Below, in pieces: positions 2 through 40,580 of a DNA stretch of 64,000 bases; the first letter of the stretch is position 1, and every line of letters begins with the position of its first letter. The stretch covers positions 62,001-126,000 of the forward strand of contig JALFVN010000035.1 in the NCBI GenBank assembly GCA_022787565.1. Reading direction: 5' to 3'. The notes under the pieces are model-generated. The model was given only the letters and a program-made list of their open reading frames with translations. It did not search any database and was not told the DNA's origin. The position numbers and the translations under genes are program-made. This stretch comes from Clostridiales bacterium. Lineage in GTDB: Bacteria > Bacillota > Clostridia > Oscillospirales > Oscillospiraceae.

Positions 2-817
2 TGCGACGCCCTGGCCGGTCTGGAGGCAGTGCGCCTGAACCGGCCCTATATCTATCTCTGCCACTGCGGCATCGTAGACGTGGCGGTGCCGGTGATGGTG
101 GGGGAAAAATATCTGGGCGCGGTGATGTTCGGCCAGGTGCGTATCCCCAACGACGATACCGATGCCAAGGTGGAGCGACTGGTCAGCGAGATCAGCTCCT
201 TTCAGGCCGAGGAGGAGACCACCCGCCGGGACCTGCTTGAAAAGTACGAGAAGATCCCGGAAATGGAGTATAAACGCATTGTGGAGATCGCCGGGCTGAT
301 CGACGCCGCCGTGCAGTACATCGTCCACCGGGCATTGGAGACAAGGAATCAGTTTTTGACCTATGAGTGGATGCTGCGCACCGCCTCCGCCGGCGTGGAG
401 GAGAGCCGCCTGCCCTCTCTGCCGCCGGACATCGGGAAAATGGTGGAAGGCAGCGGGAACGAAGACAGCCGGGAGAACAGCATTGTGCCCAAAAGCAGCC
501 CGGTCTATCCGGCCATCGCCTATGTGGAGGAGCACCGCAGCGAAATGGTCACCATGCGGGACATGGCAAATCTCTGCCATCTCAGCCCCAGCTATTTCAG
601 CAAGATCTTCCCCCGGGAGGCCGGAGAGAACTTTACAGATTATGTAAACCGCCGCAAGGTGGAATGGGCCACGCAGAGGCTGCGACAGAGCGCCGAAAGC
701 ATCTCCGCCATCGCCTTTTCGCTGGGCTATGTGGACACCAGCTATTTCATCAAGGTGTTCAAGAAGTTTGAGGGCATCACTCCCCTGGTCTACCGCCAGC
801 AAAAATATAAATCATAA
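2..817 (+). CDS. PocR-domain AraC-family transcriptional regulator, 5' end missing
   Basis: The open frame enters from the left edge in frame 2; 271 residues are visible and the start codon lies outside. The N-terminal part resembles a PocR ligand-sensing domain (motif YLCHCGIVDVAVPV near residue 18, then a glycine-rich GEKYLGAVMFGQ segment). A linker of about 60 residues precedes a C-terminal AraC double helix-turn-helix (MRDMANLCHLSPSYFSKIF, then AIAFSLGYVDTSYFIKVFKK). PocR regulators sense small metabolites, often in diol or cobalamin pathways, but the ligand cannot be told here because the upstream neighbours are absent. The gene converges on the radical SAM gene and both stop at a shared terminator. 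Family assignment is firm, ligand unknown. Confidence 0.85.
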   Translation, partial: CDALAGLEAVRLNRPYIYLCHCGIVDVAVPVMVGEKYLGAVMFGQVRIPNDDTDAKVERLVSEISSFQAEEETTRRDLLEKYEKIPEMEYKRIVEIAGLIDAAVQYIVHRALETRNQFLTYEWMLRTASAGVEESRLPSLPPDIGKMVEGSGNEDSRENSIVPKSSPVYPAIAYVEEHRSEMVTMRDMANLCHLSPSYFSKIFPREAGENFTDYVNRRKVEWATQRLRQSAESISAIAFSLGYVDTSYFIKVFKKFEGITPLVYRQQKYKS

Positions 818-829
818 AAATCACCTCAT

Positions 830-869
830 AAAAATCAGCTGCCGGATTTTTGTCCGGCAGCTGATTTTT
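830..869. terminator. Bidirectional intrinsic terminator
   Basis: A 17-bp perfect stem (830-846 with 853-869) and 6-nt loop carries A-rich and T-rich ends, so it can stop transcription from both converging genes. The stop codon of the minus-strand gene lies in its right arm. Confidence 0.9.
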
Positions 870-1974
870 ATTGTTGATTATTTATTTCTTCTTTTTCCAG
901 CAGCCGCAGCGATTCCTCCGCAAAGCGGCACATATATTCCGGCAGGCCGTCGTAGCTCCCGGTCTCCAGCAGGGCGCTGGCCGCACAGGTACGGCACAGG
1001 GTCCGCAGACGGCAGACGGCGCATTTTTCATTCAGCAGGATCTCCGCCGTCCGGGCAGAGACCTCCGCCCAGGCTGCAGCAAAGCCCCGTTCAAACACCG
1101 GGACCGACGGCTCCGCCAGCACCACGCAGGAGCGCAGCTCCCCCTGCCAGTTGACGGTGAAGGAGCAGTTGCCCCCCATGCACGTCACCTTCCGGGAGGA
1201 GGTCTCCCCCGCTCTGACCCGGCGCAGACTCTCCGTTACATACTTTTCCCAGAGCTCCGGCCCCATCTCCTGCCGCAGGGCGGTGATCCTGGCTCCGGCG
1301 GCCTGCTCCGGCAGCAGGCGGGATTGTTCATTGAAGGGCCTTCCCCGCTCCCGCACGGCAGGCATCATATAGCTGTCCATCCGCACCGGCACGTCCAGCT
1401 CCCGGCCGATCGCCAGGATACGCTCCAGATCAGGCAGATTGCTCCGGGTGACGCTTCCGCCGATCTTCACGTCCACGCCCCGCTCCCGCAGCAGACGGAC
1501 AGCGTTGACGGCCTTTTCGAAGCCCCCGGGATAATGGCACAGCTCCTCATAGGCCCGGTCGTCGCCGCCATACAGGGTGATGTTCACCCGGCGGGGCTTG
1601 TGGCGGCCGAAGAAATCCGCCCACTCCTCGTCGATCAGGGTGCCGTTGGTATTAATGGTCAGGATCATACCCATAGCTTTCAGGGCCAGATACAATTCCT
1701 TAAAATCCGGGTACAGCAGGGGCTCTCCCCCGGTGAGCAGGAGAAACAGAACACCGGCATCCGCCATCTGACGGCCCAGCGCCGTCCACTCCTCCAGCGT
1801 GCGGAGCCTGCCCAGCCGCGCCATCTCCTCCCGGCTCATACGGACGTAGCACATGTCGCAGTTCATGTTGCACAGGGGCAGCAGCTCAATGCTGCCGTTC
1901 ACCGGCTCTTTTTGCTCTCTGGCCCTGGCAATGAGCGCCCGCTCCACGCCGTTCATGGCCTCCATTGTATCCAC
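868..1974 (-). CDS. Radical SAM/SPASM domain protein
   Basis: 368 residues. An N-terminal CNMNCDMC motif (Cys35, Cys39, Cys42, CX3CX2C) binds the radical-SAM [4Fe-4S] cluster; a TGGEPLL motif follows for SAM binding. The C-terminal third holds further cysteines in a SPASM-like pattern (CMGGNC, KCAVCRLRTLCRTC, YMC), which in this family carry one or two auxiliary clusters. SPASM proteins usually modify ribosomally made peptides or mature enzymes. No short precursor peptide is evident on either side, so the substrate is unknown. The start is a GTG preceded by GGAGGG at about 8 nt. Confidence 0.85.
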   Translation of the reverse strand: MDTMEAMNGVERALIARAREQKEPVNGSIELLPLCNMNCDMCYVRMSREEMARLGRLRTLEEWTALGRQMADAGVLFLLLTGGEPLLYPDFKELYLALKAMGMILTINTNGTLIDEEWADFFGRHKPRRVNITLYGGDDRAYEELCHYPGGFEKAVNAVRLLRERGVDVKIGGSVTRSNLPDLERILAIGRELDVPVRMDSYMMPAVRERGRPFNEQSRLLPEQAAGARITALRQEMGPELWEKYVTESLRRVRAGETSSRKVTCMGGNCSFTVNWQGELRSCVVLAEPSVPVFERGFAAAWAEVSARTAEILLNEKCAVCRLRTLCRTCAASALLETGSYDGLPEYMCRFAEESLRLLEKEEINNQQ

Positions 1975-35241: not shown

Positions 35242-35991
35242 TTATCTTGCCATCTCCCACATCAGCACCGCGGCGGCTGCCGCGGCATTCAGCGACTCGC
35301 TGTCCGGCTGCATGGGGATGATGATCTGGCCGTCGCAGAGGGCAAGAAAGTCTTTGCTCAGACCCTGTCCCTCGCTGCCGATGGCCACGGCGGAGCAGCA
35401 CAGCGCCGTTTCCCGCACATCCCGGGCCTTATCGCTGAGAGCCGCGCCGTAGAGCGGCAGCTTGTTTTCCGAAAGGAAGGCTTTCAGCTGCCCCAGCTCC
35501 ATCTGTTCCACCCGCTGGCGGAAGATGGCGCCCATGGTGGAGCGCACGGTCTTGGGGTTATACAGATCCGCGCAGGCGCCCACCAGCAGCACCGCGCCGA
35601 TGCCGAAGGCGTTTGCCGTGCGGATGACAGTGCCCACATTGCCCGGATCCTGCACATTTTCCAGGATCACCGCGTTGGATACCGGCCCCTCCGCCTTTTT
35701 GCCCGGAATGTCTACGGCAAACAGTGGCCCGGGGCTGTTTTTCATGGTGGAGGCATAGTCAAAAAGCTCCGCCGGAAGGATATACTGCTCCCGGCAGTCA
35801 AGCCCTTCCACCTGCCGGGCCTGCTCCTTCCACAGCACCAGGCTTACCCTGGCGCCGAAGCACAGAGCCTCCCGGAGGGTCTTCATCCCGTCGCAGAGAT
35901 ACTGCCCCTTTTCCCGGCGGTAAGCCCCGTCGTTTGCCAGGGCGCGCACATGGCCGATGGTCGGATTTTTTCTTGAAGTTATTCTGTCCAT
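35242..35991 (-). CDS. TrmH/SpoU family RNA 2'-O-methyltransferase
   Basis: 249 residues from ATG 35991 (MDRITSRKNPTIGHVRALAND). The N-terminal substrate-binding domain and the C-terminal SPOUT knot (ILENVQDPGNVGTVIRTANAFG; AIGSEGQGLSKDFLALCD; IIPMQPDSESLNAAAAAAVLMWE) are complete. Members methylate ribose in rRNA or tRNA. The exact target nucleotide is not clear. No strong ribosome site precedes the ATG; the longer frame to 36150 is not family-like. Confidence 0.88.
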   Translation of the reverse strand: MDRITSRKNPTIGHVRALANDGAYRREKGQYLCDGMKTLREALCFGARVSLVLWKEQARQVEGLDCREQYILPAELFDYASTMKNSPGPLFAVDIPGKKAEGPVSNAVILENVQDPGNVGTVIRTANAFGIGAVLLVGACADLYNPKTVRSTMGAIFRQRVEQMELGQLKAFLSENKLPLYGAALSDKARDVRETALCCSAVAIGSEGQGLSKDFLALCDGQIIIPMQPDSESLNAAAAAAVLMWEMAR

Positions 35992-36178
35992 AAACAAATA
36001 AGAAGCAAATAAGCTGCGGCAGGGCGCTCCGTCCTTGTCACAGCATCGTCCGGTTTCTGAATTCGGTGACATTTTATCATATTTACCGGGTTTTTCAAGT
36101 GTTTTATTAAATAAGGTAGGAACTCCCGCCGGGGTTTTTGCCCTGTTCAAAAATTTTTAAGTTTTTCCCTTTTTGTTG

Positions 36179-36207
36179 TTGACACAGAGGAGGAATATTG
36201 CTAAAAT
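36179..36207 (+). promoter_or_regulatory. Strong sigma-A promoter of a structured RNA upstream of potABCD
   Basis: TTGACA (36179-36184), 17-nt spacer, TAAAAT (36202-36207). A transcript would start near 36213. No coding frame follows for 395 nt. Confidence 0.85.
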
Positions 36208-36212
36208 AAGTC

Positions 36213-36548
36213 GTCTCGATTGGATATGAGTTTATCCAGTACGCATTTTTGGATGATGTTCAGCTATGCGTATAAGCAAGATAGCGACCGCTGCACTGCA
36301 GCCAAGGCCACACGGACAGCCGGGTCGAATGCCGAAGAACCGCAGGAGCGGTGGCAACTTCTGTTGCCTTATTGATTGAGTTAAAAGCTCAAGTTTTATA
36401 AGTTGGTTACTATAAACCGGTGCTATTAAGAGCATACAAACTTGTGAAATGGTCAATAAGAGTAGTAAAAGTAATCTTTGCTATATAGACTCTAAAACCC
36501 ATTGGGATCATCGCAGCCGCCTTGGGCGGCCGCTTATTGTGATTTTTT
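36213..36548 (+). ncRNA. Candidate structured non-coding RNA of about 330 nt
   Basis: Starting after a strong promoter and ending at a GCCGCC/GGCGGC hairpin with a T6 tract (36516-36548), the stretch has no protein-like frame. It folds into many local stems: TGGAT/ATCCA (36221-36238), TACGCAT/ATGCGTA (36240-36272), GCTGC/GCAGC (36290-36302), ACCGC/GCGGT (36339-36352), GGCAAC/GTTGCC (36353-36368), TTGAG/CTCAA (36376-36392), TTATA/TATAA (36396-36415) and TGCT/AGCA (36421-36434). Composition is more AT-rich than the neighbours. It does not show RNase P, tmRNA, SRP or 6S signatures. It may be an independent RNA or the leader of potA; a member of the raiA-motif group is a weak possibility. Confidence 0.6.
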
Positions 36549-36552
36549 CAAG

Positions 36553-36588
36553 GTGATGTATGCGCATACGCATACGTCATCTTTTTTT
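36553..36588 (+). terminator. Second intrinsic terminator, directly before potA
   Basis: GATG-TATGCG (36555-36564) pairs with CGCATA-CGT-CATC (36569-36581), followed by TTTTTTT (36582-36588). It lies 20 nt upstream of the potA start and could act as an attenuator. Confidence 0.75.
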
Positions 36589-36607
36589 GTTTTATGGGGG
36601 TACGGGA

Positions 36608-37726
36608 ATGAAAAAGATCATTGAGCTGAAAAACATCACCAAGTCCTTTGACGGGGAGGTCGTGCTGGACCATATCGATCTGGACATTTACGACAACGAG
36701 TTTCTCACCCTGCTGGGTCCCTCCGGCTGCGGCAAAACCACCACACTTCGTCTGATCGGCGGCTTTGAGACGGCAGACGAGGGCGACATCATCTTCATGG
36801 GCGAGAACATCAACAACATGCCCCCCCACAAGCGCAACGTGAACACCGTGTTCCAGCGCTACGCCCTGTTTCCCCATCTGAACGTGTTTGAAAACGTGGC
36901 CTTCCCTCTCCGGGAAAAGCGGGTGCCCAAGGCGGAGGTGGAGCAGCGGGTAAAGGAAATGCTCACCATGGTGGCCCTCACCGGCTTTGAGCACCGCAGC
37001 GTCACCAGTCTGTCCGGCGGGCAGCAGCAGCGGGTGGCCATCGCCCGGGCCCTGATCAGCCGGCCCAAGGTGCTGCTTCTGGACGAGCCTCTGGCCGCGC
37101 TGGACCTGAAGCTGCGCAAGGACATGCAGCAGGAGCTGAAAAACATCCAGAAGGCCATGGGCATCACCTTCGTGTTCGTCACCCACGACCAGGAGGAGGC
37201 CCTGTCCATGTCCGACACCGTGGTGGTCATGTCCGAGGGGCGTATCCAGCAGATCGGCACCCCTATCGACATCTATAACGAGCCGAAAAACGCCTTTGTG
37301 GCGGACTTCATCGGCGAGAGCAACATTGTGGACGGCGTGATGCTGGAAGACCGGAAGGTGGCTTTCTCCGGCCATGTGTTCGACTGTGTGGACTTCGGCT
37401 TTGAACCGAAGGAGCCGGTGGACGTGGTGGTGCGGCCCGAGGACGTGGACATCGTTTCCGAGGACAAGGGGATGCTGAAGGGTGTGGTCACCTCTGTCAC
37501 CTTCCTGGGCGTACATTACGAGATCATTGTGGACATCAACGGCTTCAAATGGATGATCCAGACCACAGACTTTTTGGACGTGGACGAGCACATCGGTCTT
37601 TTCATCGAGCCGGAGGCCATCCACATCATGAAAAAGTCGGAATATTCCGGTATGTTCGGCGACTACTCCTCCTTCTCCAACGAGCTGGACGAGCTCAGCG
37701 ACGCGGAAAGCGAGAGTGAGGAATGA
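36608..37726 (+). CDS. potA: Spermidine/putrescine ABC transporter ATP-binding protein
   Basis: 372 residues from ATG 36608 ([20 protein letters not shown]), preceded by GGGGG. Motifs: Walker [11 protein letters not shown]-loop, signature [15 protein letters not shown], Walker [14 protein letters not shown]-loop VTHDQEEAL; the C-terminal 130 residues are a TOBE-type domain. It powers polyamine import with PotB, PotC and PotD. The gene follows the structured RNA and its terminators and overlaps potB by 4 bp. Confidence 0.94.
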
Positions 37727-38604
37727 GAAACGCTTCCGCCCCCGCAAGGCGGGGTCTTGTGTACAGAATGGTGCTGGCCCCCTATTCGGTCTGGGCCTTT
37801 CTGTTCATTCTGGTGCCCCTGATCTTTGTGGCCTACTATGCTTTTACCGACCAGAATTTTAATTTCACCCTTGACAACATCACCCGCTTTTTTACCGCCA
37901 CCTCCACGGTGAACGACGGCGCCGTGACCCGGGAGATTCACACCTATCTGGTGATCTTCGTCCGCTCGCTGAAGCTGGCGGTGATCTCCACGGCGATCTG
38001 CCTTATCATGGGCTATCCCATGGCCTATATCATCTCCCGCGCCTCCCAGCGCACCCAGAATGTGCTCATCACCCTGATCATGATCCCCATGTGGATGAAC
38101 TTCCTGATCCGCACCTACGCCTGGATGACCATCCTGCAGGACACCGGCATATTAAACGGCCTGCTTGCCAGAATCGGTCTTGGCCCGGTCCATATTATCG
38201 GCACAGAGGCCGCCGTCATCATCGGCATGGTCTACGACTACTTCCCCTATATGATCCTGCCCATCTACTCTGTTATGGCGAAAATGGACGTGAAGCTTCT
38301 GGAGGCCGCCCGGGATCTGGGCTGCAACAGCGCAGGCGTCCTGCGCCGGGTGATCTGGCCGCTGAGCCTTCCCGGCGTCATCTCCGGCGTCATCATGGTG
38401 CTTATTCCCTCCATCAGCACCTTCTACATCTCCCAGAAGCTGGGCAACGGCAAGTTTTACCTGATCGGTGACGCCATTGAGGGGCAATACGCCGCCAATA
38501 ACCTGCATTTTGCCGCCGCTATCGCCTTTATCCTGATGGTGATCCTGCTGGTCTGCATGGCGCTGATGCAGCGGGGTGCCAATAAAAAGGCCATGGTCAT
38601 GTGA
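37723..38604 (+). CDS. potB: Spermidine/putrescine ABC transporter permease PotB
   Basis: 293 residues, six predicted membrane helices. The EAA loop that contacts PotA is [27 protein letters not shown]. An N-terminal [19 protein letters not shown] helix fits PotB. It starts in a 4-bp overlap with potA, so the subunits are co-translated. Confidence 0.93.
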
Positions 38605-38617
38605 AAGGAGGAAGCGA

Positions 38618-39445
38618 ATGAAAACTTCATCTAAGATCTATACCGCGCTGATCATGCTCTTCCTTTTCGCCCCCATCGCCATTTTGCTGGTGTTTTCCTT
38701 CAATGAGTCCAAAAGTCTTTCCGTGTTTTCCAAGTTCTCTCTGTACTGGTATAAGGAGCTGATCCGGGATTCGGAAACGCTGAACGCGGTGAAAAACACC
38801 CTGCTGCTGGCCTTCTGCGCCGCAGCCATCTCCACGGTCATGGGCACTGCCGCCGCAGTGGGCATGAACAAGCTGAGAAACCGCTATGTCCGCGCCGTGA
38901 TGGACACCGCCACCAACATCCCCATGATCAACCCGGAGATCATCACCGGCATCTCCCTGATGCTGATGTTCGTCTTTGTAGGCCGGCTTTTCGGCGCGGC
39001 AACCAGTCTGAGCTTCTGGACCATGCTCATCGCCCATGTGACCTTCTGTCTGCCCTATGTAATTTTGCAGGTGCTGCCCAAGCTCCAGCAGATGGACAAG
39101 TCCCTGCCTGAGGCGGCCATGGATCTGGGCTGCACCCCGGTCCGGGCCTTTTTCAAGGTGGAAATCCCGGAGATCATGCCCGGCATCGTCACGGGACTCA
39201 TTATGGCCTTTACCCTGTCCCTGGATGACTTCGTCATCAGCTATTTCACTGCGGGCAACGGCTTCCAGACTCTGCCCATCCGTATCTTCAACATGACCAA
39301 GAAAACCGTCACGCCGAAGATGTATGCCCTTGCCACCATTACTTTCTTTGTTATCCTTGCTCTGCTGCTGATCTCCAACCTGTCCGACGGGGAAACCTAC
39401 CGGCAGATGAAGCTGGCAAAGCAAAAGAAAAAAGCAAAATCCTGA
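38618..39445 (+). CDS. potC: Spermidine/putrescine ABC transporter permease PotC
   Basis: 275 residues from ATG 38618, 8 nt after AAAGGAGG and 13 nt after potB. Six membrane helices; EAA loop LPEAAMDLGCTPVRAFFKVEIPEIMPG. The SLDDFVISYFTAG segment is typical of PotC. It pairs with PotB to form the channel. Confidence 0.93.
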   Translation: MKTSSKIYTALIMLFLFAPIAILLVFSFNESKSLSVFSKFSLYWYKELIRDSETLNAVKNTLLLAFCAAAISTVMGTAAAVGMNKLRNRYVRAVMDTATNIPMINPEIITGISLMLMFVFVGRLFGAATSLSFWTMLIAHVTFCLPYVILQVLPKLQQMDKSLPEAAMDLGCTPVRAFFKVEIPEIMPGIVTGLIMAFTLSLDDFVISYFTAGNGFQTLPIRIFNMTKKTVTPKMYALATITFFVILALLLISNLSDGETYRQMKLAKQKKKAKS

Positions 39446-39464
39446 TTCTCTGGAGGTACACAAA

Positions 39465-40580
39465 ATGAAAAAATTCCTATCCATCCTGCTGGCCGCCGCT
39501 ATGCTCTGCTGTCTGTCCGTCTCTCTGGCGGGCTGCGGCTCTTCCGACACGCTCATCCTGAACGTGTATAACTGGGGCGAGTATATCTCCGACGGCTCCG
39601 AGGGTTCCTTTGACACCATCCATGCCTTTGAAAGCTGGTATGAGGAGACCTACGGTCATAAGCTGAAGGTGAACTACGACACCTACGCCAGCAACGAGGA
39701 CATGTACAACAAGATCTCCAGCGGCGCTGTCAGCTATGACGTGATCGTCCCCTCCGACTATATGATCGCCCGCATGGCAGACGAGGGTATGCTCCTGCCG
39801 CTGAATTTTGACAATATTCCCAACTACCAGTACATTGAGGACAGCTTCCGCGGCCTGTATTACGACCCGGACGATCAGTACTCCGTGCCCTACACCTACG
39901 GCGTTGTTGGCATCATCTACAACGCAAACGCAGTGGATAAAGCCGATATCGGTGGCTGGGATCTGATGTGGAATGACAAATATGCCGGCCAGATTCTCCA
40001 GTTCAACAACTCCCGCGACGCCTTCGCCACCGCCCAGTACAAGCTGGGTCTGGATGTGAACGATACCGACAAGTCCTCCTGGGACGCTGCCCTGACCGAG
40101 CTGAAGACCCAGGCCCCCCTGGTGAAGAGCTATGTGATGGACGAGGTGTACAACATGATGGAATCCGGCGAAGCCGCCGTGGCTGCTTACTATGTGGGCG
40201 ACTACTTCACCATGGTGGATGCGCAGGCCGAAAGCGTGGATCTGCAGTGCTTTGTTCCTGAGGTGACCAACTATTTTGTGGATGCCATGTGCATCCCCTC
40301 CTGCTGCCAGAACAAGGAGCTTGCGGAGATCTTCATCAACTATATGCTCTCCGCCGAGCCTGCCATTGCCAATGCCGAGTATATCTATTACGCCTCCCCC
40401 AACTCTCTGGTCTATAACGACGCGGGCTATCAGGAAGAGCTGGGCGAGGAGGCCATGGCCATTCTTTACCCCGAAATCGGTGATTTCAGCCAGTACTACA
40501 ACAAGTATGCCTTCCGCAACCTGGACAGCGAGACGCTGGATTACCTGAACTCCCTTTGGGAAGCACTGAAAATTAGCTGA
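39465..40580 (+). CDS. potD: Spermidine/putrescine-binding lipoprotein PotD
   Basis: 371 residues. A lipoprotein signal peptide ends in LAGC (Cys near residue 24). The mature part begins with LNVYNWGEYI, the hallmark of PotD/PotF, and continues with a two-lobe binding fold. It captures polyamines outside the membrane and delivers them to PotBC. The ATG follows TGGAGG. A terminator follows the gene, ending the operon. Confidence 0.93.
   Translation: MKKFLSILLAAAMLCCLSVSLAGCGSSDTLILNVYNWGEYISDGSEGSFDTIHAFESWYEETYGHKLKVNYDTYASNEDMYNKISSGAVSYDVIVPSDYMIARMADEGMLLPLNFDNIPNYQYIEDSFRGLYYDPDDQYSVPYTYGVVGIIYNANAVDKADIGGWDLMWNDKYAGQILQFNNSRDAFATAQYKLGLDVNDTDKSSWDAALTELKTQAPLVKSYVMDEVYNMMESGEAAVAAYYVGDYFTMVDAQAESVDLQCFVPEVTNYFVDAMCIPSCCQNKELAEIFINYMLSAEPAIANAEYIYYASPNSLVYNDAGYQEELGEEAMAILYPEIGDFSQYYNKYAFRNLDSETLDYLNSLWEALKIS

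Follow-up and report, generated by a model that had tools for sequence, protein, structure and literature searches.

The window analysed here is a 64,000-nucleotide (nt) stretch of DNA from a Clostridiales bacterium, and the features described below lie on its + strand unless stated otherwise. It contains potA (36608 to 37726), which encodes the ATPase of a spermidine/putrescine ABC transporter. The protein exceeded the cut-offs of two NCBIfam families for spermidine/putrescine or polyamine transport (NF043075.1, 566.8 bits with a cut-off of 550; TIGR01187.1, 375.1 bits with a cut-off of 355.6). The next genes are potB, potC, and potD (37723 to 40580), which in NCBIfam match spermidine/putrescine transporter subunits best, with scores short of the equivalog cut-offs. 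A gene for an RNA methyltransferase-like protein (35242 to 36150, - strand; match below the cut-offs) forms the other flank of the potA leader. The host genome gave no SpeD match and a single decarboxylase-family match, at 90 bits. Therefore, PotABCD import is probably the main spermidine supply of this host, and control of uptake makes sense in a bacterium that has no SpeD match.

The leader starts with a sigma-70-type promoter (36179 to 36207), TTGACA-17-TAAAAT, which matches at 11 of 12 positions and carries a TG before the -10 element, in agreement with the preliminary description of this locus. The leader RNA would run from 36213, the start that the promoter predicts, to the end of a U tract at 36588. 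At 144 of 174 related loci, a promoter-like pair precedes the core by no more than 190 nt, compared with 19 of 174 after mononucleotide shuffling. Two tandem terminators had been described before potA. The strong one is an intrinsic terminator at 36550 to 36588, with a 15-bp stem (36550 to 36583) and a T run (36582 to 36588); the stem ends 24 nt upstream of the potA ATG at 36608. The other, at 36516 to 36530, is only a GC hairpin followed by a weak tail, CGCTTATTGT, that lacks a proper U tract. The RNA from 36213 to 36548 folds at -110.6 kcal/mol (z = -4.70), and none of 100 shuffled sequences was as stable.

Comparison with related loci indicates a full RNA of about 280 nt with about ten helices, most of them with covariation. 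Near the 5' end is the hairpin P0 (GGAT/ATCC, 36222 to 36237), which was recognized by eye in relatives. An extra hairpin (TACGCAT/ATGCGTA, 36240 to 36272) lies between P0 and P1 and was absent, by eye, from the congeners inspected. One of its arms is complementary to the terminator (ATGCGTAT/ATACGCAT) and pairs with it in a constrained fold; it may add to the switch proposed below. Helices P1 to P3 form a 5' module (36285 to 36335), followed by the P4 hairpin (GGCAAC/GTTGCC, 36353 to 36368), in which all six pairs are changed on both sides among relatives, and by a 3' domain, P5 to P10 (36368 to 36493). In the 3' domain, helix P7 (TTATAAGTT/AACTTGTGAA, 36395 to 36448) surrounds P8 and P9 and has 6 of its 10 pairs changed on both sides. 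P9 is a hairpin (GTGCT/AGCAT, 36420 to 36435), and so is P10 (GAGT...ACTC, 36460 to 36492), which is retained even in the members seen that are reduced the most. The minimum free energy (MFE) structure of the window RNA contains P4 to P10 and lacks P2 and P3. It also pairs the 5' end of the leader (36213 to 36223) with the stretch after P10 (36494 to 36510), perhaps an outer closing helix in the genus.

The preliminary description could match the RNA to no known class and proposed a scan with Rfam covariance models, above all that of the raiA motif (RF03072), its weak candidate. We found that the 5' module is RF02440 (Streptococcus sRNA SpF59, also ldcC RNA), a class with no assigned function in the literature consulted. 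The match covers the whole 54-position model and scores 64.9 bits (E = 2.4e-11), above the gathering score of 37.2. RF02440 is the sole Rfam family matched in the leader; even at E values up to 10, no other family matched 36000 to 36700, so the 3' domain has no Rfam family and the earlier claim holds for that part. The raiA motif was rejected, because its model gave no match in the window at the gathering threshold or in 36000 to 36700 at E values up to 10. RF02440 covers only the small 5' module, and the RNA is about five times longer. We rejected the limits of RF02440 as those of the whole element, since the 3' domain still lies before potA in genomes that lack the RF02440 core. Elsewhere in the window, the Rfam scan picked out a Gut-1 RNA (RF01706, 4261 to 4337, - strand, 74.4 bits), a family filed in Rfam only as an sRNA gene, and a single glycine riboswitch aptamer (RF00504, 51808 to 51899, 64.2 bits).

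RF02440 is not confined to Streptococcus, as its name would have it, and its core was found in many records from other genera. Matches were present in 41 of 391 genomes of the class, 90 of 101 genomes of the genus, and 18 of 398 genomes of the phylum. Every positive genome had one copy, which in our judgement is unusual for a widespread riboswitch. The exact core pattern occurred in at least 117 contigs. Clostridia, as assigned from the names, make up most of the 80 that were listed with a name; Bacillus, Neobacillus, Paenibacillus, Lactococcus, Acidaminococcus, Phascolarctobacterium, and one Synergistaceae metagenome-assembled genome are also among the named matches listed. In the contig binned as Synergistaceae (L137), the RNA lies before SpeD, by horizontal transfer or through a binning error. 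A viral origin was rejected, since viral contigs gave no match to the exact core pattern, the only pattern searched there.

The gene downstream of the RNA is a polyamine gene on the same strand at 217 of 217 readable loci. These comprise 171 loci of a first set, 25 further RF02440 loci, 14 loci found only with the R1 model of the 3' domain (see below), and 7 congeners without the RF02440 core; they do not equal 217 genomes, because some records overlap (for example, L055 with L110 and L056 with L099). The first gene was taken as the longest open frame on the RNA strand with its start no more than 900 nt from the core, and only that strand was considered. The first set contained 177 loci, drawn from, among others, the RF02440 matches in class and genus genomes and the listed exact-core contigs. 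Shared motifs assigned 168 of its 171 readable loci: 72 PotA-like ABC ATPases, 39 Orn/Lys/Arg (OKR) decarboxylases, 34 SpeD proteins, and 23 carboxynorspermidine synthase-like dehydrogenases. Six loci end at a contig boundary, and three were left unclassified by motif. Two of these three encode a decarboxylase (L157) and a SpeD (L171), each in another frame, and the third (L050) looks PotB-like by eye. The further RF02440 loci are divergent or phylum-level; 25 of 26 were processed (L223 was left out), and all 25 carry the same kinds of gene, one of them (L191) as judged by eye.

The assignments were checked against protein families. Every one of the 72 ABC ATPases in the first set shares 50% or more identity with the window PotA, in three cases over a stretch shorter than 150 residues, and two distant ABC ATPases have spermidine/putrescine ATPases as their best NCBIfam match. 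The SpeD of L005 passes TIGR03331 (399 bits, cut-off 255.8). The SpeD proteins of L005 and L067 had no Pfam match at 1e-15, and the name SpeD is based on the NCBIfam result for L005 together with the shared motifs. For the L080 dehydrogenase, the one match at 1e-40 was to carboxynorspermidine synthase, with 422 bits against a cut-off of 800. The OKR_DC_1 and saccharopine dehydrogenase domains scored above their Pfam cut-offs. We also scanned four operons. Three of them (L065, L093, and L094) include an OKR decarboxylase, a spermidine synthase, and an arginase-family enzyme, and two of these three also have a saccharopine-dehydrogenase-like gene; in the fourth, L080, the second gene had no Pfam match at 1e-15. 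This result suggests that spermidine is the common product or cargo of all four gene types.

The gene types bear on the signal that the RNA might sense. It might be a riboswitch for another compound of the pathway, such as S-adenosylmethionine (SAM) or decarboxylated SAM, agmatine, putrescine or cadaverine, or arginine or lysine, and from what is known of these families, OKR decarboxylases and SpeD do use or make such compounds. However, PotABCD imports polyamines and, again from family knowledge, has no role with SAM or amino acids, and PotA-type genes make up 72 of 171 loci. Spermidine would be the one compound that all four gene types share. We therefore consider a riboswitch for one of these other signals quite unlikely.

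The preliminary description had also proposed aligning related loci for covariation. The first set included 169 whole-region loci, 160 of them distinct. Seventeen of the 177 loci were dropped because the anchor was missing, and the MAFFT alignment A1 holds 110 of 160 cropped regions, without near-duplicates and long ones. A1 supports P1 (GACC/GGUC), P2, P3 (GGC/GCC), P4, P5 (UUAUUGA/UCAAUAA), P6, P7 (UUAUAAGUU/AACUUGUGA), P8, and P10. Over 56 pairs, 95.1% of the cells are paired, compared with 28 to 49% when the partners are slid by one to three columns; the structure and the alignment derive from the same sequences. Cells changed on both sides number 324, against a shuffle mean of 89.5 and a maximum of 117 for slid structures. 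Covariation is thus present: on each of five measures, all 500 shuffles fell below the observed value. Pairs with a double change number 32, compared with 12.4 in shuffles and 16 to 26 in slid structures, so this count is not far above that of the slid structures.

The signal is concentrated in P2, P4, P6, P7, and P8. P1, P5, and the outer part of P10 are nearly invariant, and covariation therefore hardly tests them. P9 could not be aligned in columns and was judged locus by locus; a stem of at least 4 bp was present at 140 of 148 loci, in 69 distinct forms. An unguided fold with RNAalifold kept 28 pairs, 19 of them with double changes, added a covarying pair below P1 (columns 3 and 77, 62 sequences), and preferred a different P3, CGG/CCG. 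We prefer GGC/GCC, although the core is too conserved for certainty, because L023, L026, and L030 carry GCC/GGC and L192, L218, and L219 carry AGC/GCU, as seen by eye. These six divergent members thus show double changes in P3, and L030 and L219 also in P1. By eye, the pair below P1 and the first P2 pair (A1 columns 3, 8, 52, and 77) seem to depend on gene class. They are A-U in many OKR, SpeD, and dehydrogenase loci and G-C in PotA loci of the genus, which could reflect tuning to the ligand or shared descent.

The stretch had been described as having no protein-like frame, and it is indeed non-coding on its own strand. The length of P5 to P10 modulo 3 is spread over 67, 62, and 50 of 179 sequences, and no forward frame of the leader stays open in more than 13 of 149. 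Attenuation by a leader peptide or a stalled ribosome could draw on one frame in the genus, ATGGTCAATAAG..., that runs through P10. However, the free length and the closed frames argue against it, and we consider this mechanism extremely improbable. A protein-coding or leader-peptide function was rejected, since no open reading frame is conserved across the relatives.

The preliminary description took the CGGACAG segment for the conserved core. The segment is conserved, but it belongs to a module that can be absent. In the genus, 11 of 101 genomes had no RF02440 match; PotD is clear in eight of these and not in the other three. The region before potA was readable in seven of the eight, and the eighth ends at a contig boundary. 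All seven have a TTGACA-like element, a P0-like AATTGG, and the 3'-domain strand GGTCAATAAGAGTAGT, with PotA downstream, and all seven lack the CGGACAG core. P4 is kept in five and missing in L205 and L206, and L209 has a shortened P7 to P9 and a GACC stub.

To follow the 3' domain without the 5' module, we used R1, a covariance model of P5 to P10 only. R1 and A2 each used 42 of the 54 sequences kept, with the window included, so that the window score of 132.9 bits is high by construction. R1 matched 48 of 391 class genomes (41 for RF02440) and 25 of 398 phylum genomes (18 for RF02440). It missed one RF02440 genome of the class, at a contig end, and none of the 18 in the phylum. Fourteen genomes were matched by R1 only, and there the RNA lies before an OKR decarboxylase (6), SpeD (7), or PotA (1). 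These gene contexts are a test that is independent of how the model was built. At 17 loci outside RF02440, Rfam at gathering thresholds gave nothing of this kind and a single hit, a tRNA. As judged from the sequences, the RNA is thus an optional 5' module, P1 to P3, joined to a 3' core outside Rfam.

Intermediate and reduced forms were also seen. Some R1-only loci have remnants of the 5' module: L234 and L244 carry a degenerate ACGGACA, and L253 and L275 perhaps have worn copies. The SpeD loci L246 and L247 have only the P7 3' strand, a UCAAUAAG-like strand, and P10, and the P7 5' strand is missing; in L189 and L218, the P7 region is shortened. Genome G305 gave two R1 hits, apparently the halves of one RNA split by an insertion. 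The insertion (L277, about 508 to 905, reverse strand) is about 280 nt long, lies inside P9, and has inverted ends (GTTGAGCCGAACAGTAATAATCC / GGATTGTTACTGTTCGGCTGAC). It leaves both halves recognizable and resembles a small mobile element in a permissive loop. In the Lactococcus-type loci L120, L130, and L142, the 5' core and the UCAAUAAGAGU strand are kept and P6 to P9 are rebuilt, and L142 apparently has a nested insert in P2.

We then considered the region between P10 and the gene. A terminator-like hairpin was found there at 120 of 143 loci, compared with 15 of 143 dinucleotide-shuffled controls (an ad hoc finder, 143 of the 177 loci, one shuffle per locus). The scan detected none at 23 of the 143, including 9 of the 24 carboxynorspermidine-type loci. 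In the window, a putative antiterminator strand, GCATACAAACTTGTGAAA (36432 to 36449), comprises the 3' strands of P9 and P7 and is complementary to the 5' arm of the terminator. The stretch TTTTTTCAAGGTGATGTATGC (36543 to 36563) can pair with it through GTATGC:GCATAC and CAAG:CTTG. The P7 and P9 3' strands can pair either within the folded RNA or with the terminator arm, so that the fold and the antiterminator would compete for one strand. We propose the P7 3' strand as the switching strand.

Duplex energies support this choice. We slid 77 windows against the 5' side of the terminator at 111 loci with distinct arms, which are related by descent. The peak fell on the P7 3' strand, as three overlapping windows that contain this strand and the bases just before it (z of -15.1, -12.7, and -12.4). 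The neighbouring windows reached -5.1 and -3.2, and all others were weaker than -2.5, some of them in the opposite direction, up to +3.7. Values up to +3.7 indicate that the null spread is wide, and therefore the peak alone counts. When the window was widened into P9, the energies of the loci with their own arms summed to -1421.5, compared with -1274.3 (SD 20) after permutation within gene class, and none of 5,000 permutations was as low. The preference for the own arm is clear for the PotA, OKR, and SpeD classes; in the carboxynorspermidine class, own pairing was not better than permuted. The P9 3' strand pairs over at least 4 bases with the terminator arm at 86 of 103 loci, compared with 33.7 expected from mononucleotide-shuffled arms.

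A terminator arm that fits the strands of its own RNA better than those of relatives argues against a trans-acting small RNA (SpF59, F59, srn235, or SN20) whose place before polyamine genes reflects only its promoter. The pneumococcal RNA is catalogued as an sRNA in the sources available, and termination before the gene would yield a free RNA, as that reading needs. However, every readable locus places the RNA before a polyamine gene on the same strand, and we consider a trans-acting small RNA very unlikely. A free RNA, the other option of the preliminary description, may still arise through premature termination.

Two properties of riboswitches can be compared with these results. The 5' leaders of genes from a single pathway share a conserved structured domain. 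Mutually exclusive states of the expression platform are present at the level of sequence, but the equilibrium energies in the window disfavour switching. The terminator state has an energy of -131.9 kcal/mol and the antiterminator state -120.8 kcal/mol, so that the terminator is better by 11 kcal/mol, and when the window transcript is truncated right after the terminator 5' arm, its fold lacks the antiterminator. Because the terminator state wins at equilibrium in the window, the choice would have to be kinetic and be made during transcription.

We suggest the following mechanism. The nascent leader would fold the optional P1 to P3, then P4, and then the junction domain P5 to P10. When this structure is closed, the 3' strands of P7 and P9 would be buried, the terminator (36550 to 36588) would form, and transcription would stop before potA. 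When it is open, these strands would pair with the terminator 5' arm, and potA would be transcribed. The most likely closing agent is a polyamine, above all spermidine, that binds the RNA directly. In this scenario, the RNA would switch off uptake in this host and synthesis in other bacteria. The off direction follows the usual logic of such leaders, since a ligand that closes P7 frees the terminator, and it fits both uptake and synthesis genes. The conserved structure, the gene association, the terminator, and the complementarity are all read from sequence; from them we infer that an antiterminator forms, that closing turns the genes off, that a ligand binds the RNA directly, and which ligand this is.

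The same gene context and expression platform would also serve a cis attenuator that is sensed by a protein or another trans factor and whose RNA itself binds no polyamine, and the long invariant stretches could be a protein site. However, metabolic genes and no obvious regulator were seen in the small number of operons examined, and the size and junction architecture of the RNA are, in our judgement, typical of aptamers. We regard such a sensor as unlikely. The alternatives are not all mutually exclusive, nor do they all exclude the preferred explanation. That the RNA is a real, conserved, cis-placed attenuator of polyamine genes is highly probable. That it attenuates the potABCD mRNA in cis, closes on a polyamine, most likely spermidine, and shuts the genes off is probable to a lesser degree. 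As a candidate riboswitch for spermidine, its chances lie at or a little above even. The long polyamine-responsive attenuation leader offered as one option in the preliminary description therefore agrees in form with the gene context, conserved structure, terminator, and antiterminator found here.

Polyamines bind RNA widely, and to our knowledge, convincing polyamine riboswitches were long missing. The RNA described here may be an unrecognized class of polyamine-sensing RNA, and it offers a concrete candidate, widely distributed, whose fold and expression platform have been mapped. If the proposal is true, it shows how many Firmicutes choose between importing and synthesizing spermidine. The Rfam alias ldcC RNA shows that the neighbouring gene had already been noticed, and novelty is therefore not proven. 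In the portions available of the open-licence PMC literature, the RNA was not found as a polyamine leader; a collection of 224 candidate RNAs (doi 10.1093/nar/gkx699) lies outside that scope. A word search for polyamine-gene or SpF59-type terms was negative in PMC6296669, PMC6212727, PMC11109978, and PMC6429828.

Several known RNAs invite comparison. The raiA motif is likewise a structured RNA of Gram-positive bacteria, but it differs from the leader, which its model does not match. RF02440 is typed as a Streptococcus sRNA gene, whereas the RNA here is cis-placed and found in Clostridia, Bacilli, and Negativicutes, by record name for 80 of at least 117 contigs. The pneumococcal gene SP0916 presumably encodes a lysine/arginine decarboxylase. 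According to the available parts of two reports, SpF59 came from pneumococcal sRNA screens, is also called F59, SN20, srn235, and Spd_sr49, and sits between SP0915 and SP0916; a 2025 table places it at 869478 to 869804 of TIGR4 (327 nt), and another gives 82 nt (PMC3395615, PMC12323649). A review table, as far as available, lists the pneumococcal RNA under lung, and the accessible pneumococcal sRNA literature that was consulted names no function for SpF59. If our proposal is true, this pneumococcal "sRNA" would be reclassified as a polyamine-operon leader.

Other leaders of polyamine genes are set apart from the RNA here by their descriptions, in the parts of the sources available. The ABC-leader of Haemophilus somnus and Pasteurella multocida is likewise an attenuation-type potABCD leader, in Gammaproteobacteria, and is likened to our leader by description (PMC2965389). 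The potE motif of Veillonella and the odc1 uORF motif of alpha-proteobacteria are candidates from other lineages and genes; the former reportedly lacks covariation support and an obvious expression platform, and the latter is a hairpin with a uORF (PMC8632094). The speF (PMC11477304) and potC (PMC2864571) motifs are also candidate leaders of polyamine genes in other lineages and before other genes.

A system that works alike in outline is the spermidine riboswitch that is a variant of SAM-I, the one polyamine riboswitch encountered in the literature consulted. In the text available, it lies before speE, speB, and ldcC and turns genes off by premature termination; its authors describe this class as narrowly distributed and state that further classes surely await discovery (PMC10853860). 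Our leader resembles it in its place before polyamine genes and in its proposed off-switching by premature termination, but the two differ in helix order, as far as the available description goes, and the SAM-I model matched neither the window at gathering thresholds nor 36000 to 36700 at E values up to 10. We are evenly divided on whether the RNA represents a widespread spermidine or general polyamine riboswitch class across Bacillota, one that would be structurally unrelated to the SAM-I variant and would attenuate uptake or synthesis genes through an optional 5' module and a 3' core outside Rfam.
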